From: Methanolobus chelungpuianus
Lineage (GTDB): Archaea; Halobacteriota; Methanosarcinia; Methanosarcinales; Methanosarcinaceae
Assembly: GCF_024500045.1 (NCBI RefSeq)
Contig: NZ_JTEO01000010.1
Location: 1 to 64,000, forward strand
DNA length: 64,000 nt
Direction: 5' to 3'
Positions 50,468-61,562 of the stretch are shown in pieces. The number at the start of each line of letters is the position of its first letter. Position 1 is the stretch's first letter. Both the position numbers and the translations under genes were made by a program. The notes beneath the pieces are model-generated. The model was not told the DNA's origin. It worked only from the letters and a program-made list of their open reading frames with translations, and did not search any database.

Positions 50468-51118
50468 TTATGCAAACAATGCATTGATCTTGTTCACAGC
50501 ATCCCCTGCGTTCTCAGCATAGATGTCTGCACCGATCTTCTTTGCCCAGTCCTGGGTCACAGGTGCACCGCCAACCATGGTCTTGACATTGTAGCGGAAG
50601 CCTGCCTCTTTCAGCTGTTCTTCGATCTGTATCTGACTGACCATAGTGGTTGTCATGAGTGCTGATGAAGCTACAACATCTGCTTTAGTTTCCTTTGCCT
50701 TCTCGACATAGGATTTTATCGGGACATCCCTTCCAAGGTCCACAATCTTGAATCCTGCTATCTTGAGCATTGTTGCCACAATGTCCTTTCCAATGGAGTG
50801 TATATCACCTTCAATTGTTCCAATGACAATTGTACCCCTGGACTTAGTTTGAGCACTGGTTTTCTCAAGTTCAGGTGTTAGAATGGTAATCGCTGCCTGC
50901 ATTGCATCAGCTGCTGCAATAACGTGAGGGAGAAACAGCCCTCCTGCCCCGAACCTCTCACCAACATCCGTCATTGCTGCTGTGAAACCTTCCTCTATGA
51001 GCTCGGCAGGATTAATTCCCGCAGCAAGTGCTTCCTCAGCAACCTCTGTTGCCATTTCATCATCAAATTCCATAATCGCTTCTTTTGCTTTCGCAATGAT
51101 CTCTTCTTTTGTAACCAT
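50468..51118 (-). CDS. mttC: trimethylamine corrinoid protein MttC
   Basis: A 216-residue corrinoid carrier that accepts the methyl group from MttB. The N-terminal helical cap (EIIAKAKEAIMEFDDEMATEVAEEALAAGINP) is followed by a Rossmann-like cobalamin domain. The lower-ligand motif is DIHSIG in GTIEGDIHSIGKDIV near residue 104, with SALMTTTM and GGAPVTQ binding the nucleotide tail. GAGGT stands before the ATG. mttB is 33 bases upstream in the same operon, which supports TMA specificity; the family is otherwise shared with MtbC and MtmC. Confidence 0.93.
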   Translation of the reverse strand: MVTKEEIIAKAKEAIMEFDDEMATEVAEEALAAGINPAELIEEGFTAAMTDVGERFGAGGLFLPHVIAAADAMQAAITILTPELEKTSAQTKSRGTIVIGTIEGDIHSIGKDIVATMLKIAGFKIVDLGRDVPIKSYVEKAKETKADVVASSALMTTTMVSQIQIEEQLKEAGFRYNVKTMVGGAPVTQDWAKKIGADIYAENAGDAVNKINALFA

Positions 51119-51150: not shown

Positions 51151-52611
51151 TTAGTTTCCTGCAACCATTTTGTCTATTTTCTTAACGATAGCCTTCATAT
51201 CCTTGAGGATATCAGCATCTATAGGCTTGACCTGATGGTTCTGCAGTATGTCTGTTACTTTGTCATGCGCCGCACTTGCCAGATCCTTTGAACCCGCTCT
51301 CTGCCAGTCCCCGATCATCTGCCTGTTAATTACAGAGGGATGGGAGGGGAGACTGATGTTCTTCAGTGTCGTCTTGTGCGCAAGGAAGTGGCCGCCAAAT
51401 CCTGTATCCCTGATAGCCTTGTAGGCAAGTGTGTCTTCTGTCACAGGGACACCGTCCCTGGATTTCATTATCATACCTATGAAATCATTGTCCATCACAA
51501 GCTGTTCAAGCGAAAAGGTCATACCGAGCTCAAGCATACCTGCACCATATATCACACTGGCACCTGCATATGCGGGAATAAGGCCGGTAATGGTTTTCTC
51601 ATGTCCAGCCTGGGCATCAGGTAGCTTCGAGTCTGCCTACGAGCCTGCTACAATGCAAGGCAGACCATAATACTGTGCCAGCTTTGCAACCCCTGCGCTT
51701 ATCATTGCAAGTTCTGGAGAACCTACAGGGGCTGTACCGCCTTTTATGTCAAATGCAGTTGTGGAACTGCCATATTGAGTGGGATGCCCAGGTTTGAAAA
51801 GTTGGGTCAAAACCACACCGGCAAGCACTTCGGCATTATGGGTCACAAGTGTTCCTGCTATGTGTACTGGAGATGATGCCGCACTCATAGCCATGCTCAG
51901 AACCATCATTGGTATACCATACTTCGTAGCCTGGAGCGCCATCTCACATATAGCATAGTCCAGTTCCAGAGGACTTGTTGGACAAGAACCGACTGTAAGC
52001 AGTGGCTTTTTCACGGCCTCTTCCTCATCTCCACCATAGACAGCCTTGACTAATTCAAAGTAATATGGCATTTTCTCGGGCTCAGGGTCTACCATAATAT
52101 GTTTTGAACAATTCTCCATAACTGCCAGCACTTCATGCATGGTCCTGGAGACCGGCTGGGTGGCTATATCTATTGCAGAGACAGGAGAGCAAAGATAACT
52201 TATATTAGGTGCCCAGTCCACAACTTTAGAGATATTTGCAAGATCCTGTAGAGTGCTGTCCCTTACATGATAATCATTAGGTCCTCTATAATCAGCCACT
52301 TTGGTTCCGATACCAAAATTAGTCCATCTTACTTCTTTTCCGTCGCTTGTCAGAGTAGCATTATATTTTTCGTCACGGCCATAAATAGTGTATGATGAAG
52401 GAGCTGTTTTTATTGCTTTCATCACAAGTTCTTCCGGGAACCTGACAACTCTTGTCTCTTCGTTCACGTCACAGCCATTTTCCTTGAGAACTTTCCTCGC
52501 ATAGTCGTGCGAAATCCTAATTCCTGGATCAGCCAGCACTTTAAGTGTTGTCTGATGAATGGCTTCAATGTCCTCTTTGTCGAAGAGTTCGAATTTAATT
52601 CCATTAGTCAA
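51151..52611 (-). CDS. mttB: trimethylamine methyltransferase MttB (pyrrolysine protein, amber read-through)
   Basis: A 486-residue TMA:corrinoid methyltransferase, displayed as two open frames because of an in-frame TAG at 51637-51639. The frame stays open on both sides (27 codons link the TAG to the second displayed segment). The TAG is codon 325, matching the pyrrolysine position known in this family (near 334), in a context of CIVAGS-Pyl-ADSKLPDAQ. The TTG start has GAGGTG upstream, shorter than Methanosarcina MttB. N-terminal KEDIEAIHQTTLKVLADPGI and later MVDPEPEK are family-like. Expression needs pyrrolysyl-tRNA, encoded outside this window. Its corrinoid partner is mttC downstream. 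Confidence 0.95.
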
Positions 52612-52788: not shown

Positions 52789-53889
52789 TTAATCCACCCT
52801 TCCAATTCCTTCAACAGCCGGCGCACAGTCACGAGTACATTCCATCGCGGAATCGCATCCGCTATCCCAATACATGACAAATGTACCAATAACCGCAATG
52901 CTTGCACCAACGATAATTCCCCACCCAATGGGAACTCCCATGAAAATAGATAGACTGAGGATTGCAAAGACAACGTAGAGTGTACCAATGCTCAGGCCAC
53001 GTCCTACTCCAATGAGGGGATAAGCCTTGTACAAAGCTATATAACAAACACCAAGTGACAAAGCCGCAATTGTCAACCATATAAGGAAAGAAGGACTTGT
53101 AAATGTGCCCACCAATGCTGTTGTCATCACATCAAAGCCAAATAAGAACATCGAAACAGGAACAAGTATAAGGGACCAGATCAGTGCCTCGGATATGAAC
53201 CTCACAACAAGACCTGTGTCTGCATCAGTCATGTCCAGCACACGAGCAGCAATAGCACCTTCAAGACCCCAACCTATGGCAGACATGATACCTCCAAGGT
53301 AGCCAAGCCATACTCCATCTGGAGATGCAGGGTTCATTATCTCAGCCATCATCTGTGAAGGATTCCAGATGAAGATACCACCAAAAAGGATCAATCCGAT
53401 ACCTATCCAGACCCTCCTCGTGATGTTCTCGCTATACCAAACTTTTGCAGCAAAGGCACCCACAACACTACAGAGCAGAGCAGCAGATGCTGAAAAAGCA
53501 GCACCGATGTAGCCAACTGCAAGAGTAGAACCAAATATTGCTATCGGGCCACCAAAAGCAGCAGCAAAAACATACCATTTGGATATCTTATAAGCTCGAA
53601 GCGTCCGTGGAATATCTGCGAGTTTACCCAGACTTCCGGACCATACAATTGCAAGAACTATGCTGAATGCTATGGCCATTGCAGTAGTTATGCAGATGGT
53701 TGCAACGAGGAATCCTGCACTTCCGTCGGGGAAAATCGAAAAATCACCGATCGGTGGAACAATCCATAACATCGAAATTGCCACATATCCAAGACCCCAG
53801 AGCACTGCACAGGTAAATGCCCAGATAAAGCCCCATTTTACACGGCTTTTGTTCTCACTTCTTATAATTTCCTCTATATTATCGACCAT
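52789..53889 (-). CDS. mttP: methylamine permease (MttP-like, EamA/DMT fold)
   Basis: A 366-residue membrane protein with about 10 helices, of the EamA drug/metabolite transporter fold as used by MttP of Methanosarcina. The N-terminal ENKSRVKWGFIWAFTCAVLWGLGYVA, AFGGPIAIFGSTLAVGYIGAAFSASAALLCSV and GIIMSAIGWGLEGAIAARVLDMTDADTGLVVRF are shared almost exactly with the second permease at 54388. The ATG at 53889 with GGAGGTAG upstream is chosen over a frame open to 53937. Located between the dimethylamine and trimethylamine genes and next to mttB, it probably carries trimethylamine. Confidence 0.88.
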   Translation of the reverse strand: MVDNIEEIIRSENKSRVKWGFIWAFTCAVLWGLGYVAISMLWIVPPIGDFSIFPDGSAGFLVATICITTAMAIAFSIVLAIVWSGSLGKLADIPRTLRAYKISKWYVFAAAFGGPIAIFGSTLAVGYIGAAFSASAALLCSVVGAFAAKVWYSENITRRVWIGIGLILFGGIFIWNPSQMMAEIMNPASPDGVWLGYLGGIMSAIGWGLEGAIAARVLDMTDADTGLVVRFISEALIWSLILVPVSMFLFGFDVMTTALVGTFTSPSFLIWLTIAALSLGVCYIALYKAYPLIGVGRGLSIGTLYVVFAILSLSIFMGVPIGWGIIVGASIAVIGTFVMYWDSGCDSAMECTRDCAPAVEGIGRVD

Positions 53890-53943
53890 ACTTTCTACCT
53901 CCAAAATATAGAGAATGAATTTGAGTTCATCCTCCAACTCCAG

Positions 53944-54063
53944 TCATATCTTTTTTGTAAAAGTACGTCCGATGTAGAGAGCCAGCAGGTCAAGTAACAG
54001 AATCAGTACGAGATATACGTAGTCAGCTCCTGCAAATGCCCATATGCCTTCAATATGGAACAT
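53944..54063 (-). CDS. 39-residue single-helix membrane peptide between the two permeases
   Basis: Too short for most gene finders. The ATG at 54061-54063 starts 3 bases after the stop of the 95 aa gene, and a GGAGG ends 7 bases before it. The product begins MFHIEGIWAFAGADYV, has one hydrophobic helix (about residues 15-31, LVLILLLDLLALYIG), then a basic tail RTFTKKI. The next permease gene begins about 55 bases on. I infer a small subunit or regulator of a permease; I do not know a named family. Confidence 0.7.
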   Translation of the reverse strand: MFHIEGIWAFAGADYVYLVLILLLDLLALYIGRTFTKKI

Positions 54064-54066
54064 AGT

Positions 54067-54354
54067 TCAGGCCTCCAGTAATTCTTCAATACGTGCCTTT
54101 CCAAAGTCACTTATATCGTATCTGTACAGCACCTTACCTTTTGCAAAGTGACTGCCATCGTCTGCTTCCGCTTTAACGATATTGAATATACCGCCGCAGG
54201 AAAGCTCAACCATCCAGAAGCGAACCATCCATTTCCAGTAGTCGCCAGACTTGCCGTACTCTGCAAGAAGTTTATCTATGAGTTCATAGTCCCATGACTC
54301 GCCGCCTTCATTAAGAAGTTGAATAAGCCTTGTTTTCATAGGTAGAGTTGTCAC
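54067..54354 (-). CDS. small winged-helix-like protein between the two permeases
   Basis: A 95-residue soluble protein with a GTG start preceded by GAGGTGATAAT. KTRLIQLLNEGGESWDYELIDKLLAEYGKSGDYWKWMVRFWMVELSCGGIFNIVKAEADDG and the end YRYDISDFGKARIEELLEA look like a winged-helix fold, rich in Trp. No DNA-recognition helix is evident. It is in the operon between the two permeases and ahead of the membrane peptide. Function unknown; a conserved accessory of methylamine uptake or corrinoid protein handling is a guess from position. Confidence 0.7.
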   Translation of the reverse strand: MTTLPMKTRLIQLLNEGGESWDYELIDKLLAEYGKSGDYWKWMVRFWMVELSCGGIFNIVKAEADDGSHFAKGKVLYRYDISDFGKARIEELLEA

Positions 54355-54387
54355 ATTATCACCTCTTTAAATATTCTAATTTCAATC

Positions 54388-55443
54388 TTAACGGGTAGAC
54401 TCCATCAGTGATTCACCACTGTCGCCATACATAACAAATATTCCAGCCATTGCAAGACCTGCACCAACGATGATCCACCATGCAGTTGGAATTCCCATGA
54501 AAACGTACAATCCGATGATGGCAAAGAGCACATAAAGTGTAGAAATGCTCATTCCACGTCCAACACCAATTAAAGGATAGGTCTTCCACATGAACACATA
54601 TGAAAAATTAGCAGTCAGGCCGATAATTGCAGCCCATATGAGGAAGGAAGGACTTGATATGGTTGCAGCAAGGGCCGTAATTACTACACCCGGACCAAGA
54701 AGCAACATGTAGATAGGCCAGATGACAACGCTCCATACAAGAACCTCACCTACGAAACGAGTATGCAGGCCTGTATCTGAATCTGTAAGATCAATAACGC
54801 GACCGGCAATTGCTCCTTCAAGGCCCCATCCGATTGTCGCTGCAAAAGCACCGAAATAACCGAGCCACATTCCTTCAGGAGCTGATGGGTTTGTGATCTC
54901 TGCAAGGGTCTGGATAGGATTCAGTATAAAAATACCACCAATAACCATGATTCCAATACCCATCCATGCCCTCTTGGTGATATTTTCGCCATACCATAGC
55001 TTGGCAACAAAAGCACCGACTACAGCTGTAAGAAGTGCGGCAGAAGCTGAAAATGCTGCACCAACATATCCTACAGCCAATACACTACCATAAATCGCAA
55101 ATGGTCCACCAAGAGCTCCTGCAAAAGCATACCATTTGGAAATCTTAGTAGTGCGAATTGTTCTTGGGAGATCTGCAAGTTTACCAGTTCCACCAAGGTA
55201 GAATAGACTCAATATAATAAATGCGATCGTTATCTGAACTGTCATCATTGCAGCGGCTGCCACCAGCATACCCATTGCACCTTCCGGAAATGCCGACATA
55301 GTATCAAAAGGAGGTACCATCCACACTACCGTTAAAGCTACGTATGCCAGTCCCCAAAGAACAGCACAGATTATTCCTATAAGGAAACCCCATTTGATTC
55401 TGTTCTTACTTTCTTTTTGGATAAGTTCATTCAAGTTTACCAT
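54388..55443 (-). CDS. methylamine permease (second copy, EamA/DMT fold)
   Basis: A 351-residue membrane protein with about 10 helices and strong similarity to the permease at 52789-53889 over its whole length (shared blocks: KWGFL.GIICAVLWGLAYVA, GGPFAIYGSVLAVGYVGAAFSASAALLTAVVGAFVAKLWYGENIT). The ATG at 55443 with GAGGTAATT is preferred to a frame opening at 55461. It follows mtbB, so it most likely carries dimethylamine. The pair looks like a gene duplication that kept the flanking small genes between the copies. Confidence 0.88.
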   Translation of the reverse strand: MVNLNELIQKESKNRIKWGFLIGIICAVLWGLAYVALTVVWMVPPFDTMSAFPEGAMGMLVAAAAMMTVQITIAFIILSLFYLGGTGKLADLPRTIRTTKISKWYAFAGALGGPFAIYGSVLAVGYVGAAFSASAALLTAVVGAFVAKLWYGENITKRAWMGIGIMVIGGIFILNPIQTLAEITNPSAPEGMWLGYFGAFAATIGWGLEGAIAGRVIDLTDSDTGLHTRFVGEVLVWSVVIWPIYMLLLGPGVVITALAATISSPSFLIWAAIIGLTANFSYVFMWKTYPLIGVGRGMSISTLYVLFAIIGLYVFMGIPTAWWIIVGAGLAMAGIFVMYGDSGESLMESTR

Positions 55444-55610: not shown

Positions 55611-56996
55611 TTACCTAAGCAAGTCGACACTAGGAATCTTGATGTCGAGCAGTTCAGCAATCTTTGCTTTAGCCTTGAGGCCCTTTGGCTGACCAGGGAC
55701 AGCATTGATTGTTCCAATGCCAAGTTCCTCCCTGATTTCTTTCATTGCATATTCGTCTGAAAGCGTGAATACATCCGTTCCAAGCTTCTTGGCTACGTAT
55801 TCTTTTGCTTCCTTCAGGCGCATACCTTTGAGCTGCATCCTCATTACAAGGTCACCAGCAGTTCTTATTCCGTGCATTCCGACAGACATCTCATTGGTTA
55901 TGAGGAAACCCACTGGGTCTCCAAGCCCGCACTATATACCATCAGCACGGCCAACTTCTACAAGGGCCTTTGCTGCTCTGGAAACCGCATCGATAGGTGG
56001 TATCTCTACCATTGGTGCACCACATACACCCATACCGAGGTTGGGGTGTATTGGAATATTTGACTGTTTGGAGCACTCCTTCATGACAGCCACTGTCTTT
56101 GCTACGTTCCATGCGACAGATTTCTTGGTGCTGGTATTCACAACAGGACCACAAATGCTTGCTCCGGCCTTTTCTGTAACCTTTACCTGATCGTGAGGCA
56201 TCATTCCGGCAAGTATTTTACCATCATACTCAAGTTCTCCGTGCATACCTAGAACAAAATGGTTTGCCATGTTAATTGCCACTCCCATATCAGTTTCTTC
56301 TTTTATTTTCTCAGTTGCCTTAAGCACAGCAAGAAACTCCGCATCTCCAGCGGCTGCAGTTGTATCGATGTTAAGGGCATCTGCTCCAACCGTTGCCGCA
56401 TTTCTAGCTACAAAAGTGATGTCTTTGATTGAACTTGGGACTATATTCTCGTAGGTTTGTCTTGCTTCCTCTATTTTCCCAGCTGCCATGAGGTCACCAC
56501 AATTCTCGAAAGGACCATCAGGTTTGTAGTATGCACCGAAGTTTGGCATAACGATATAAAAGAGCGGGTTGATGGAGTTCATCAATAGTGATTCTATTTC
56601 CTGCTGGATCTGCATTGCTGAAACGCTTTGCCCTTTTGCATTTCCTCCACGGAACGCATTCTGGACACAATCAAGACCAGTAACCCTTTCTGCTATCATA
56701 TTTGCTGTTACAGTGTCTGCAGGAACTCCCACACCACCATATTCGCTAAAGTTCATTATGATGGTATCAGGTGCTACATCTGTGCTCATAACAATAAGAT
56801 CCTCAGGACTGACACTTACAACTCTTTCAGGAGTAACAAATATGTCCAGAAGATGGTCAAGTTCATCATCAGTAAGGCCGGGCACCTTTCCTTTGGTTGC
56901 ACCGTTGTTGGCGCCATCCTCGATTTCAACTCTCAGCTCTTCACGTGTCATTTCAACACGCCTGCCGTCACCCATTCTAGTATAGATCTTTGACAT
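55611..56996 (-). CDS. mtbB: dimethylamine methyltransferase MtbB (pyrrolysine protein, amber read-through)
   Basis: A 461-residue DMA:corrinoid methyltransferase, split by an in-frame TAG at 55932-55934 whose frame stays open into the downstream segment. The amber is codon 355, almost the family's position (about 356), in a context of VGRADGI-Pyl-CGLGDPV. The N-terminus RMGDGRRVEMTREELRVEIEDGANNG and the VGADALNIDTTAAAGDAEFLAVLKATEKI barrel segment are typical of MtbB. ATG at 56996 with GAGAGGT upstream. Its corrinoid protein, mtbC, is the gene just before it in the operon. Confidence 0.95.
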
Positions 56997-57015: not shown

Positions 57016-57663
57016 TTAGTTGCTCACCAGTTGACGGACTTTCTGGACGGCTTCACTGGCATTTTCGGCGTATGCATCTGCTCCGATCTTCTCTCTCCAG
57101 TGCTCGGTGCATGGTGCTCCTCCGACCATTGTCTTGACCTTGCAGCGCAGCCCTGCATCTTTAAGCATTTGTTCAAGTGTGGCCTGAAACTGCATGGTTC
57201 CGGTCATCAAAGCAGAGGATGCAACCACATTTGCATCAATTTCCTTGGCCTTATCTACAAAAGAAGTAAGAGGCGCATCCCTGCCCAGATCGAATACTTC
57301 AAAACCGTTTGCCTGAAGGAGGACTTTAACAATGTTCTTACCAATGTCATGCACGTCTCCCTCAACAGTTCCGATAACAACTTTTCCGGTACTTGCGGCT
57401 TTTTGTCCTGCGGGGATATGCTCCTGTACCTTTGCCACGAGTTTGGTCATCAGGGATGATGCCATCATTACCTGTGGGAGGAAGATCTCACCATCTTCAA
57501 AACGGTTGCCTACTTCCAGCATTCCTATTGACAGGCCTTTTTCGATTATTATAACGGGATCAAGGCCTGCTGCCAGACCCTGCTCAATCAGTTTAAGACC
57601 ATCGTTCTCATTGAGATCTACAATGGCTTCTGCTAATTGGCTCAATATTGCATCGTTAGTCAC
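57016..57663 (-). CDS. mtbC: dimethylamine corrinoid protein MtbC
   Basis: A 215-residue corrinoid carrier. A helical cap domain (residues 1-85, LSQLAEAIVDLNENDGLKLIEQGLAAGLDP) precedes the cobalamin domain with GTVEGDVHDIGKNIVKVLL near 100 (lower-ligand His in DVHDIG), SALMTGTM near 150 and GGAPCTEHW near 184. The GTG start has GGAGG upstream. It is the first gene of the operon, and mtbB follows after 19 bases. About 60 percent similar by eye to MttC in this window. Confidence 0.94.
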   Translation of the reverse strand: MTNDAILSQLAEAIVDLNENDGLKLIEQGLAAGLDPVIIIEKGLSIGMLEVGNRFEDGEIFLPQVMMASSLMTKLVAKVQEHIPAGQKAASTGKVVIGTVEGDVHDIGKNIVKVLLQANGFEVFDLGRDAPLTSFVDKAKEIDANVVASSALMTGTMQFQATLEQMLKDAGLRCKVKTMVGGAPCTEHWREKIGADAYAENASEAVQKVRQLVSN

Positions 57664-58401: not shown

Positions 58402-58426
58402 CAACACTCTGGGTTATTTGATTAAA

Positions 58427-59206
58427 ATGCAGGCATCACCGATAAATTTCGTCTGGCTCTCAGAAAAAAGGAGAAGCCTTTTGTACTATTTACAAAACGG
58501 TCCAAAGGACATAGAGGAGATAAAGTCACATTTTGGTGTTACTTCCAGACTAATAGTCCCCGAAATAAAGAAGATGGTAAAAGCCGGAATCATGATCGAA
58601 ACTGATGGATTTTACAAGTTGTCCAATATAGGTAAACTTAATCTTGAGAGCCTAGAGGATATCATTAATACAGCAGAACTTATCGAGATAGACCCGGATT
58701 ACTGGGAAAACAGCGATCTTACAGCAATACCTGTCAATCTTTACCAGAGGATTGGCAAGTTGAAGAATAGTACAATTTACAATTATAATCTTGACGACAT
58801 ATGTGATTGCCCTGTACAATTAAGAGAAGGCATAGGTGCATCTAAAGATGTACTTACGTTTATGCCATTTTTACCACCCCTGCAACCTTCTTTGTACTTA
58901 GGACCCATGAGTAAAGGAACACATGTAACAATGATTTTGACAAAGTCAATAATGGAAAAAATGAAAAGGGAATTCCCTTTGGAATATGAAAAGCACCTGA
59001 GATCACCAAATTGTCACTTATATCTCTGTGATGAAGATATATTAAGACCAATGATAGTTGTGACGGATAATTTTTTACTATTGGGATTCTTCAAGAAGAA
59101 TGGGGTATATGGGAACAAAGAACTGATGAGCTATGATAAGAGAGCTCTCGAGTGGGGTAGAGAGCTGTGCCGCCACTACATAAGCATCTCAGAGCCTGTC
59201 AAGTAG
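58427..59206 (+). CDS. winged-helix regulator with FilR1/Msr-type domain (methanogenesis regulator family)
   Basis: A 259-residue transcription factor. The N-terminal winged helix (FVWLSEKRRSLLYYLQNGPKDIEEIKSHFGVTSRLIVPEIKKMVKAGIMIETDGFYKLSNIGKL, residues 5-70) precedes a middle and C-terminal ligand-like domain with DYWENSDLTAIPVNLYQRIGKL near 95 and KSIMEKM and GREL near the end. This arrangement matches the Msr (methyltransferase-specific) regulators of Methanosarcina. The ATG at 58427 is preferred over a TTG at 58418. It diverges from the mtb/mtt operon, so that operon is the likely target. A paralogue follows by 21 bases. Confidence 0.85.
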   Translation: MQASPINFVWLSEKRRSLLYYLQNGPKDIEEIKSHFGVTSRLIVPEIKKMVKAGIMIETDGFYKLSNIGKLNLESLEDIINTAELIEIDPDYWENSDLTAIPVNLYQRIGKLKNSTIYNYNLDDICDCPVQLREGIGASKDVLTFMPFLPPLQPSLYLGPMSKGTHVTMILTKSIMEKMKREFPLEYEKHLRSPNCHLYLCDEDILRPMIVVTDNFLLLGFFKKNGVYGNKELMSYDKRALEWGRELCRHYISISEPVK

Positions 59207-59227
59207 ATTCAAAAACGGAAGTACAAT

Positions 59228-60007
59228 ATGAGATCGTCTATCATTGATACAATAATGCTATCTGAAAAAAGAAGAGACATCATGCTTTTGTTAGCCGGTG
59301 AATCAAAAAGTCGTGGGGAAATAGCCGAATCCCTTGATATGAACTGGAACTTACTGAAGCAGCCAGTTAAGGAACTGAAGGATGCTGGATTGATTTTCCA
59401 GGACGATGACAACTACAGATTATCCAACAACGGGCGGCTCATGGTGAATGCTCTGATGCCTCTGCTGTCAATGGTAAACACCTTTTCATATGATAGCGAC
59501 TACTGGGTAAGCCGGGATCTGCAGGCTGTGCCCCGATTTATGGCAAAGAGGATGGGAGAACTTGAAAATTCTACTCTGCTTGCGCTTTCGCTGGACTACA
59601 TGTTCGAGCCTCTCAAGCAGTTTATAGAAAATATGGAACCACCTGCTTATTTGCATATAGTCCTGTCCTTGTTTGATCCGGAAGCCCCTGCACTCCTTGC
59701 GGAACTTGCAGGGAAAGGTATTGAGATCTCAGTTGTGTTCGAGCAACATATATATGAGAAAATGAACGAGGGTTTTGGAGAAGAGCTGAAAAAGATTAGC
59801 GAGAACAAAAATGTTAGCTTTTGTCAGTTAGAGAACGAAATGAGACCGCCTGAGATAATCTTCACAGACAAAGAAATGGCAATCATATTCTTCAACCAGA
59901 ATGGTAAATATGATTATAGGGAACTGCGCAGTTCTGATGCTGCGGCCATAAAATGGGGAAATGATCTCTTTAATTGCTATAAAGACATTTCAATCTTTGC
60001 TAAGTAG
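59228..60007 (+). CDS. winged-helix regulator, second FilR1/Msr-type paralogue
   Basis: A 259-residue paralogue of the preceding protein with the same plan. The winged helix is MLSEKRRDIMLLLAGESKSRGEIAESLDMNWNLLKQPVKELKDAGLIFQDDDNYRLSNNGRL, then DYWVSRDLQAVPRFMAKRMGELENSTLL. The C-terminal domain has IHIVLSLFDPEAPALLAEL and ends RELRSSDAAAIKWGNDLFNCYKDI. It is 21 bases after the first copy, so the two are co-transcribed. In the known regulators pairs may act together, with one activating one methyltransferase set. Which amine each one senses cannot be read. Confidence 0.85.
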   Translation: MRSSIIDTIMLSEKRRDIMLLLAGESKSRGEIAESLDMNWNLLKQPVKELKDAGLIFQDDDNYRLSNNGRLMVNALMPLLSMVNTFSYDSDYWVSRDLQAVPRFMAKRMGELENSTLLALSLDYMFEPLKQFIENMEPPAYLHIVLSLFDPEAPALLAELAGKGIEISVVFEQHIYEKMNEGFGEELKKISENKNVSFCQLENEMRPPEIIFTDKEMAIIFFNQNGKYDYRELRSSDAAAIKWGNDLFNCYKDISIFAK

Positions 60008-60490
60008 TTTTATCCCAAAACAGGATGCTCCACTTATCCTCGATATTCACACTGAACATTTCACAAATGACGTCTCGATTAACCTTTGCATATGTTTAAC
60101 CCTTCATTATATCAGGGTTTCAATCCTGATGTCTACTTAGACTGATTTCGAGGATTTATTTTTGAACCCTGCATTATAATCTTGTGAATTATTCCGGTTA
60201 GACTCGCTTAAAAACATCACTCCTGCCTGATAAAGCATAATATAGTCTAATTGATCTGAAGATTACAACTTTTTCTGTTGCACTCCCTGATCATGAACCC
60301 AACTATCATGGACAATCTCTCATTGCCTGCATCAGCATGACTTAACATAACTGGTCCTGTCACTTGCAGAACTTGCTTGCAGTCCTCTTTCTTCAGCAGT
60401 CCATCCACATCAGGAACTCGTGCAGTTTTCCCTTTGCTTCTATAATTTTGCATTAAACTAAGATACACATAAAGCAGGTAACAATGGAGA
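60008..60490. other. intergenic region with a weak open frame
   Basis: No convincing gene. A 68-residue minus-strand frame (60247-60453, MQNYRSKGKTARVPDVDGLLKKEDCKQVLQ) begins 38 bases after the stop of the third regulator and could be a small co-transcribed gene, but it lacks a clear ribosome binding site and a recognisable motif. The rest is AT-rich. Confidence 0.3.
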
Positions 60491-61300
60491 TCACACCAGT
60501 GATTCCAAGAGCGGTCGGATCTGGCTAACCGGGGCCGAATCCTTCAGATAGTATCCAAACAGGTCCCTTCCCCATTCAGCAGCAAGCGGGTTGGAGCACA
60601 GGATGCCTTTGCTGTCATATTCTCCATTGCTCTTCAGCAGATGAAGCAGGAGATAGTACTCATTATACATGAAATCCTGAAAAGCGAGTTCCTTTGGATA
60701 AACATAGAAATGAACAGATCTGTTCTTAACAAGACCTTCCAGATTTTTTGAGTAAAAGGTCCCTGCCTTATCGAGCATGGCCCGGGAGAGGATAAGGTAT
60801 ATGGCAACATTCTTTTGAGCAAGGCCGGACAATGATGCCAGGTACTTTGGATCAAAAAGCCGGGTGGCTGCAAAAAGCGAACCAGACATGAAGGAAGTCT
60901 GAACGATCTCCCTGTTAAGCTCATATGCATCTGAAAGAGGAGTATCGATTACCTTGCAGTTCCCAAGCTCATTAATTCTTCCTATCAGTCGATACGGGAT
61001 AAAATCAAGGTTATGGGTCCCCCAATAGTCAATGCCACTGTCCAGGACATCTGCAGTGCTTAACAAAGAGATCATCTTGCTGACCATTAATTGTCCTATG
61101 GTCGTTAATTCCCACATGTCCCCAAACCGGGTAACAAGAAAACTATCTTCCAGGACACTCAGATGCGGAAGTAAAGCCTGTCTGCCTGTTTCAAGCGACT
61201 CGAGGATAAATTCCGTCTCCTGAGGTCCGCTCTTCAGGAAAAGAAGTATCTTCTTCCTCTCCTCGCATGAGAATATAATATCGATAAGTTGCTCACTCAC
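60491..61300 (-). CDS. winged-helix regulator, third FilR1/Msr-type paralogue
   Basis: About 269 residues and on the opposite strand from the first two. The winged helix is SEQLIDIIFSCEERKKILLFLKSGPQETEFILESLETGRQALLPHLSVLEDSFLVTRFGDMWELTTIGQL, then DYWGTHNLDFIPYRLIGRINEL, LFDPKYLASLSGLAQKNVAIYLIL and RDLFGYYL. The start is uncertain: the frame opens at a TTG (61345), but the GGGGA before the GTG at 61300 and the family N-terminus favour 61300. A TATA-like TTTTAAGTATC near 61365 fits. Its target may be another methyltransferase set outside the window. Confidence 0.82.
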   Translation of the reverse strand: MSEQLIDIIFSCEERKKILLFLKSGPQETEFILESLETGRQALLPHLSVLEDSFLVTRFGDMWELTTIGQLMVSKMISLLSTADVLDSGIDYWGTHNLDFIPYRLIGRINELGNCKVIDTPLSDAYELNREIVQTSFMSGSLFAATRLFDPKYLASLSGLAQKNVAIYLILSRAMLDKAGTFYSKNLEGLVKNRSVHFYVYPKELAFQDFMYNEYYLLLHLLKSNGEYDSKGILCSNPLAAEWGRDLFGYYLKDSAPVSQIRPLLESLV

Positions 61301-61562
61301 TATCAGCACGTTTCCCCAAAACTCATCATCCCCATCCCAAATCAAGTATGTGGGCGCAGATACTTAAAACGAGCAGAAGTTCTGATAATGAAGGCAGTTA
61401 AAGTTCACCAAATGTTAAATGAAGCATCCTTTACCCTGCTCAAAGAGCAGTAAATACCTTATTCCGATAGTTGAGTTTCAAACGGATTAATACTGATCAA
61501 AATGTGATGAAGTATAGAAACGTAACTAAAATGTGAGAAACTTAATGAAAATCTGAAAGGTA

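Follow-up and report, generated by a model that had tools for sequence, protein, structure and literature searches.

This analysis concerns a 39-codon open reading frame (ORF) of Methanolobus chelungpuianus. It lies in a window of 64,000 nucleotides (contig NZ_JTEO01000010.1, positions 1 to 64,000), by which we mean the whole stretch of DNA that was analysed. The ORF occupies 53944-54063 on the minus strand, begins with ATG and ends with TGA, and its translation is MFHIEGIWAFAGADYVYLVLILLLDLLALYIGRTFTKKI. The TGA of the preceding gene is located at 54067-54069, and three bases (ACT) separate it from the ATG of the peptide, which is preceded by a GGAGG motif. A reading of the sequence alone (hereafter, the sequence-only reading) had described these features and predicted a single-helix peptide with a basic tail; the letters of the window confirmed them, and the peptide has one hydrophobic stretch with an acidic N side and a basic C side. 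The surrounding genes are transcribed from the minus strand in the order corrinoid protein, mtbB, permease, 95-amino-acid (aa) protein, peptide, second permease, mttB, and second corrinoid protein, as follows.

57016-57663, minus strand: MtbC-like corrinoid protein, encoded upstream of mtbB; TIGR02370 239 bits, which is above its cut-off and below that of the MtbC equivalog
55611-56996, minus strand: mtbB, dimethylamine methyltransferase; TIGR02368 444 bits; in-frame TAG (pyrrolysine) at codon 355
54388-55443, minus strand: upstream DMT/EamA permease P0004, the permease of the trio described below; Pfam EamA 30.1 bits against a cut-off of 28.2
54067-54354, minus strand: 95-aa winged-helix protein, the constant partner; it occupies the position of the "hypothetical protein" MM_1692 of Methanosarcina mazei
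54072-54076, minus strand: GGAGG ribosome-binding site of the peptide, 8 nucleotides before the ATG and within the end of the winged-helix gene
53944-54063, minus strand: membrane peptide of 39 aa with a single helix, third gene of the unit that it forms with the permease and the winged-helix protein
52789-53889, minus strand: downstream paralogous permease P0003, which lacks its own trio; EamA 27.4 bits, slightly below the cut-off of 28.2
51151-52611, minus strand: mttB, trimethylamine methyltransferase; TIGR02369 633 bits; in-frame TAG at codon 325
50468-51118, minus strand: corrinoid protein downstream of mttB (MttC-like); TIGR02370 290 bits

The peptide gene thus sits between an mtbB-permease pair and a permease-mttB pair. 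The sequence-only reading had placed it between two paralogous DMT permeases. This description holds for the permeases, as P0003 and P0004 are paralogues with 58.7% identity and the model of the upstream one has the DMT fold, but the direct upstream neighbour of the peptide is the 95-aa winged-helix gene, which had been overlooked.

By composition alone the ORF was unremarkable, since a comparable hydrophobic stretch was present in 5 of the 175 ATG-initiated ORFs of 35-60 aa in the window; it stands above chance because it is conserved in relatives under purifying selection. The ratio of nonsynonymous to synonymous changes (pN/pS) was 0.06-0.12 against orthologues with 87-90% protein identity, with changes falling mostly on third codon positions, and 0.19 when a more distant orthologue was pooled with them. 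The corresponding values were 1.2 and 1.8 for the shifted frames of the same strand and 0.40, 1.4, and 2.5 for the antisense frames. A GGAG, GAGG, or GGGG motif preceded the start in all 113 fetched copies (background 17%), and the matched peptide frames of 80 genomes contained no internal stop; the lone TGA flagged in the window copy was the stop of the upstream gene, which the alignment had covered. The sequence-only reading had proposed to look at the frame and its codons in relatives, and had stated beforehand that a broken frame or codons free of selection would speak against the gene; the frame was kept and the codons are selected. We concluded that the ORF is a genuine small gene under purifying selection and that it is strongly conserved. 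We also considered that the peptide might be an extension of the 95-aa protein and rejected this, as it has its own start and Shine-Dalgarno motif and the two genes share a reading frame in no more than roughly half of the copies. In the window, both permeases, the winged-helix gene, and the peptide (52789-55443, minus strand) all begin in one reading frame, probably by chance, because the winged-helix and peptide frames often differ in other copies.

The upstream permease, the 95-aa protein, and the peptide form an invariant three-gene unit, which methanogens keep or lose jointly beside their trimethylamine genes. The order permease, 95-aa protein, peptide was found in 57 of 57 named loci, which were collected via the 95-aa protein, and these loci nearly always adjoin mttB, mttC, mtbC, or mtbB. 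Of 101 Methanosarcinaceae genomes, one set of 80 contained all three genes and the other 21 contained none of them; for the peptide count, two genomes with matches at noise level only were dropped. mttB was detected in 88 of the 101 genomes, namely all 80 with the trio and 8 without it, and the peptide was absent from all 13 genomes lacking mttB (Fisher p = 2.5e-11). That eight genomes with mttB lack all three genes indicates that the trio moves as a unit. In seven of these eight, the mttB locus was fetched and contained mttB and mttC, with no winged-helix gene, no peptide, and no intact permease gene alongside. Across the phylum, the permease and the 95-aa protein occurred in the same 58 of 393 genomes, and the single one of these that lies outside the family (G118, from another class of the phylum) also has the peptide.

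Several individual loci departed from the common arrangement. In Methanolobus vulcani PL 12/M (L035:8001-9546), the winged-helix gene and the peptide are duplicated in tandem; the second winged-helix copy is split over two frames and its peptide is intact. The trio of G118 (L102:5437-7107) has an in-frame TAG in the winged-helix gene, which may represent either a pyrrolysine codon or decay; its permease gene has a TGA close to the end. An mttC-mtbC junction without the trio occurs in an otherwise similar operon of G095 (L114:7242-7702), reflecting either a clean loss or an original absence. Two Methanimicrococcus loci (L058 and L073) possess the trio; the flanking sequence fetched for them, about 8 kb, showed neither mttB nor mtbB.

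A search with the single peptide sequence returned close orthologues and, with weak scores, numerous frames some 50 aa long that have ALW-x-ARTFVS-x-F at their end. These constitute a long branch of the family, a typical member of which is MVQTAAAMEAYNAYWANSFIPAADIMWMVLILILAVIALWQARTFVSKF. A profile was built from the distant relatives of 45-54 aa only and was tested against 810 decoys. It recovered the window peptide at an E value of 6.4e-9 (best decoy 2.5), and all nine short-branch peptides, the weakest with an E value of 0.007, outscored the decoys; the two branches are therefore homologous. The window peptide belongs to a short (38-40 aa) and divergent branch with 28-41% identity to the long one, and the window's own genome carries a second, long-branch unit on another contig. 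Only M1, L29, R33, and F35 were invariant, and the most conserved region was the predicted cytosolic end. Conservation covers the tail and the half of the helix adjoining it (ALY-x-x-R-T-F-x-x-K). Of 77 distinct peptides, 76 carried more positive charge on the C side than on the N side, which according to the positive-inside rule suggests that the N terminus is outside and the C terminus inside. An Asp lies in the middle of the membrane helix of the window peptide (D25) and of the short-branch members L004, L005, L006, L007, and L033; the long branch has none at this position, and L008 has Tyr. The carrier encoded beside the peptide is expected to transport a cation. Searches with the peptides in Pfam and NCBIfam gave nothing usable, the weak matches being taken as hydrophobicity noise, and a PDB sequence search returned noise only.

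The 95-aa protein matched no Pfam or NCBIfam family. AlphaFold2, run with a 57-sequence alignment, predicted a winged-helix fold with confidence (predicted local distance difference test score (pLDDT) 93.5; predicted template-modelling score (pTM) 0.83). The nearest solved folds, among many tied rows, included those of PadR, MarR, and RosR (VIA-align Z 9-10 over 71-86 residues). The 95-aa protein shares the fold of these regulators, but it lacks a detectable sequence family and its C-terminal helix, residues 89-92 at the end of the model, is short. It is mildly acidic, with a mean net charge of -1.7 and a charge of -4 for the window copy.

The model of the upstream permease (pLDDT 82.6) matched DMT carriers including SLC35, and the best match was the choline importer LicB (Foldseek E 2e-7; PDB 7paf and 7b0k), with 17% identity to this closest solved relative in fold. 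LicB imports a trimethylammonium compound, and its entry names neither a small subunit nor a winged-helix partner. The match is in keeping with a methylated-amine substrate for the modelled permease, although a shared fold proves no substrate. For MttP, the presumed trimethylamine carrier of methylotrophic methanogens, transport was unvalidated as of 2024 (PMC11708041).

A small protein of M. mazei Go1, sORF_05 (MM_RS18880), is encoded in a dimethylamine operon that also contains the genes for the trimethylamine permease MM_1691 and the hypothetical protein MM_1692 and that occurs a second time in the genome; translation of sORF_05 was shown by ribosome profiling (Ribo-seq), about 80% of the tagged protein was membrane-bound, and its overproduction slowed growth under nitrogen sufficiency (PMC11456600). 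The window peptide likewise shares a methylamine operon with a methylamine permease and a small hypothetical protein, has a single hydrophobic helix, and, by the long-branch profile, is homologous to the Methanosarcina peptides of the same locus. sORF_05 is thus apparently a long-branch relative, and the apparent founding member of the family, of the window peptide, which differs in its shorter, divergent sequence and in the Asp inside its helix. Literature searches on mttQ and on MM_1691 and MM_1692 yielded the sORF_05 paper alone. Its authors speculated that sORF_05 is a permease subunit (Nat Commun 2024, PMC11456600), so the idea of a permease subunit for such peptides is already published; the invariant trio with its winged-helix member, the joint gain and loss, the occurrence outside the family, and the helix Asp of the divergent short branch are new. 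In how it works, another small protein of M. mazei offers a comparison: sP36 mediates the binding of GlnK1 to AmtB1 (PMC10714827), and so connects a regulator in the cytosol with a permease that carries a small amine. However, sP36 has 61 aa, is dispersed in the cytoplasm under nitrogen limitation and recruited to the membrane, and its partner is a PII protein rather than a winged helix.

Here, we propose that the peptide is probably a subunit of the methylamine permease, consisting of one helix and having an accessory or regulatory role. It would serve the permease whose gene (54388-55443) lies two places upstream, with the 58.7%-identical downstream permease as a possible second partner. It would cross the membrane once, with the N terminus outside and the basic C terminus in the cytosol, and the lower half of its helix and the conserved tail would lie against the permease and determine how active or how stable it is. 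Binding of the peptide to the permease is likely. The winged-helix protein of the same unit would be the most likely cytosolic partner to be reached via the peptide tail, as sP36 brings GlnK1 to AmtB1; by this analogy it might dock on the conserved cytosolic end of the peptide, a tentative proposal to which we give somewhat less than an even chance. A further step, a three-part transport-sensing unit in which a peptide of 39-49 aa docks a minimal winged helix on a DMT permease and the substrate flux decides on access to DNA, seems rather unlikely; if true, it would amount to an archaeal transcription factor that is tethered to a transporter and has a small protein at its core. The sequence-only reading had also suggested a small subunit or regulator of transport. 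The tight co-inheritance with the permease favours this suggestion, which nevertheless left out the winged-helix gene, an equally constant partner.

Some observations weigh against a permease subunit. The downstream permease and permease copies in two genomes (G005:C2 and G019:C90) have no trio of their own, and the permease is therefore not strictly dependent on an adjacent peptide gene. Co-inheritance would fit any role in methylamine uptake besides direct binding, and the connection to sORF_05 is based on locus organisation and on Methanosarcina relatives.

Other roles for the peptide were weighed against the same evidence. It might act mainly as a membrane anchor, holding a winged-helix transcription factor and releasing it according to the traffic through the permease, which would then also be a sensor, so that flux controls the methylamine operons. 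The constant position of the winged-helix gene between the permease and the peptide, the confident fold with PadR, MarR, and RosR among its neighbours, and the conservation of the cytosolic end all agree with such a role. The slight acidity and short C-terminal helix of the winged-helix protein, which leave DNA binding and dimerisation putative, and the presence of other predicted regulator-like genes close by (58418-61345) do not, and we consider it unlikely. It is still less probable that the peptide, as a subunit of the permease, serves only its assembly or stability and that the winged helix is an operon regulator of its own with no physical link to it. Small one-helix proteins that attach to a large transporter and modulate it do exist, such as KdpF, which acts on KdpABC, and AcrZ, and the window peptide may resemble them in this respect, although both are bacterial and their transporters are of other families. 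AcrZ acts on AcrB (PMC7267776). However, the winged helix is gained and lost with the permease and the peptide and not with the methyltransferases, which would be odd for a plain operon regulator.

The slower growth upon sORF_05 overproduction (PMC11456600) might instead point to a free-standing membrane-active or toxin-like peptide that is in the operon by accident. Overproduction of any membrane subunit can slow growth, however, and we rejected this very improbable alternative on the grounds of the perfect co-inheritance with the permease, the strong purifying selection, and the fixed place in a catabolic operon. The hydrophobic stretches of 5 of 175 comparable ORFs would be in line with a chance ORF without a selected product, whether translated or not. 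This was refuted by the intact frames in 80 genomes, the purifying selection, and the long-branch profile match; the low pN/pS, the conserved motif, the ribosome-binding motif before every fetched copy, and the Ribo-seq and tagging of the apparent relative sORF_05 (PMC11456600) also make it hardly conceivable.

For methylotrophic methanogens, trimethylamine ranks among the major substrates. With the trio, three genes of shared presence and absence become candidates, and the question of methylamine transport is therefore open to a direct test. The trio also brings in a winged-helix protein as a co-inherited partner of a small protein for which partners had so far been conjectured only. Beside the methylamine genes, the window contains predicted regulator-like genes, at 58418-60055 on the plus strand and 60491-61345 on the minus strand, one of which has a weak ArnR-type match.
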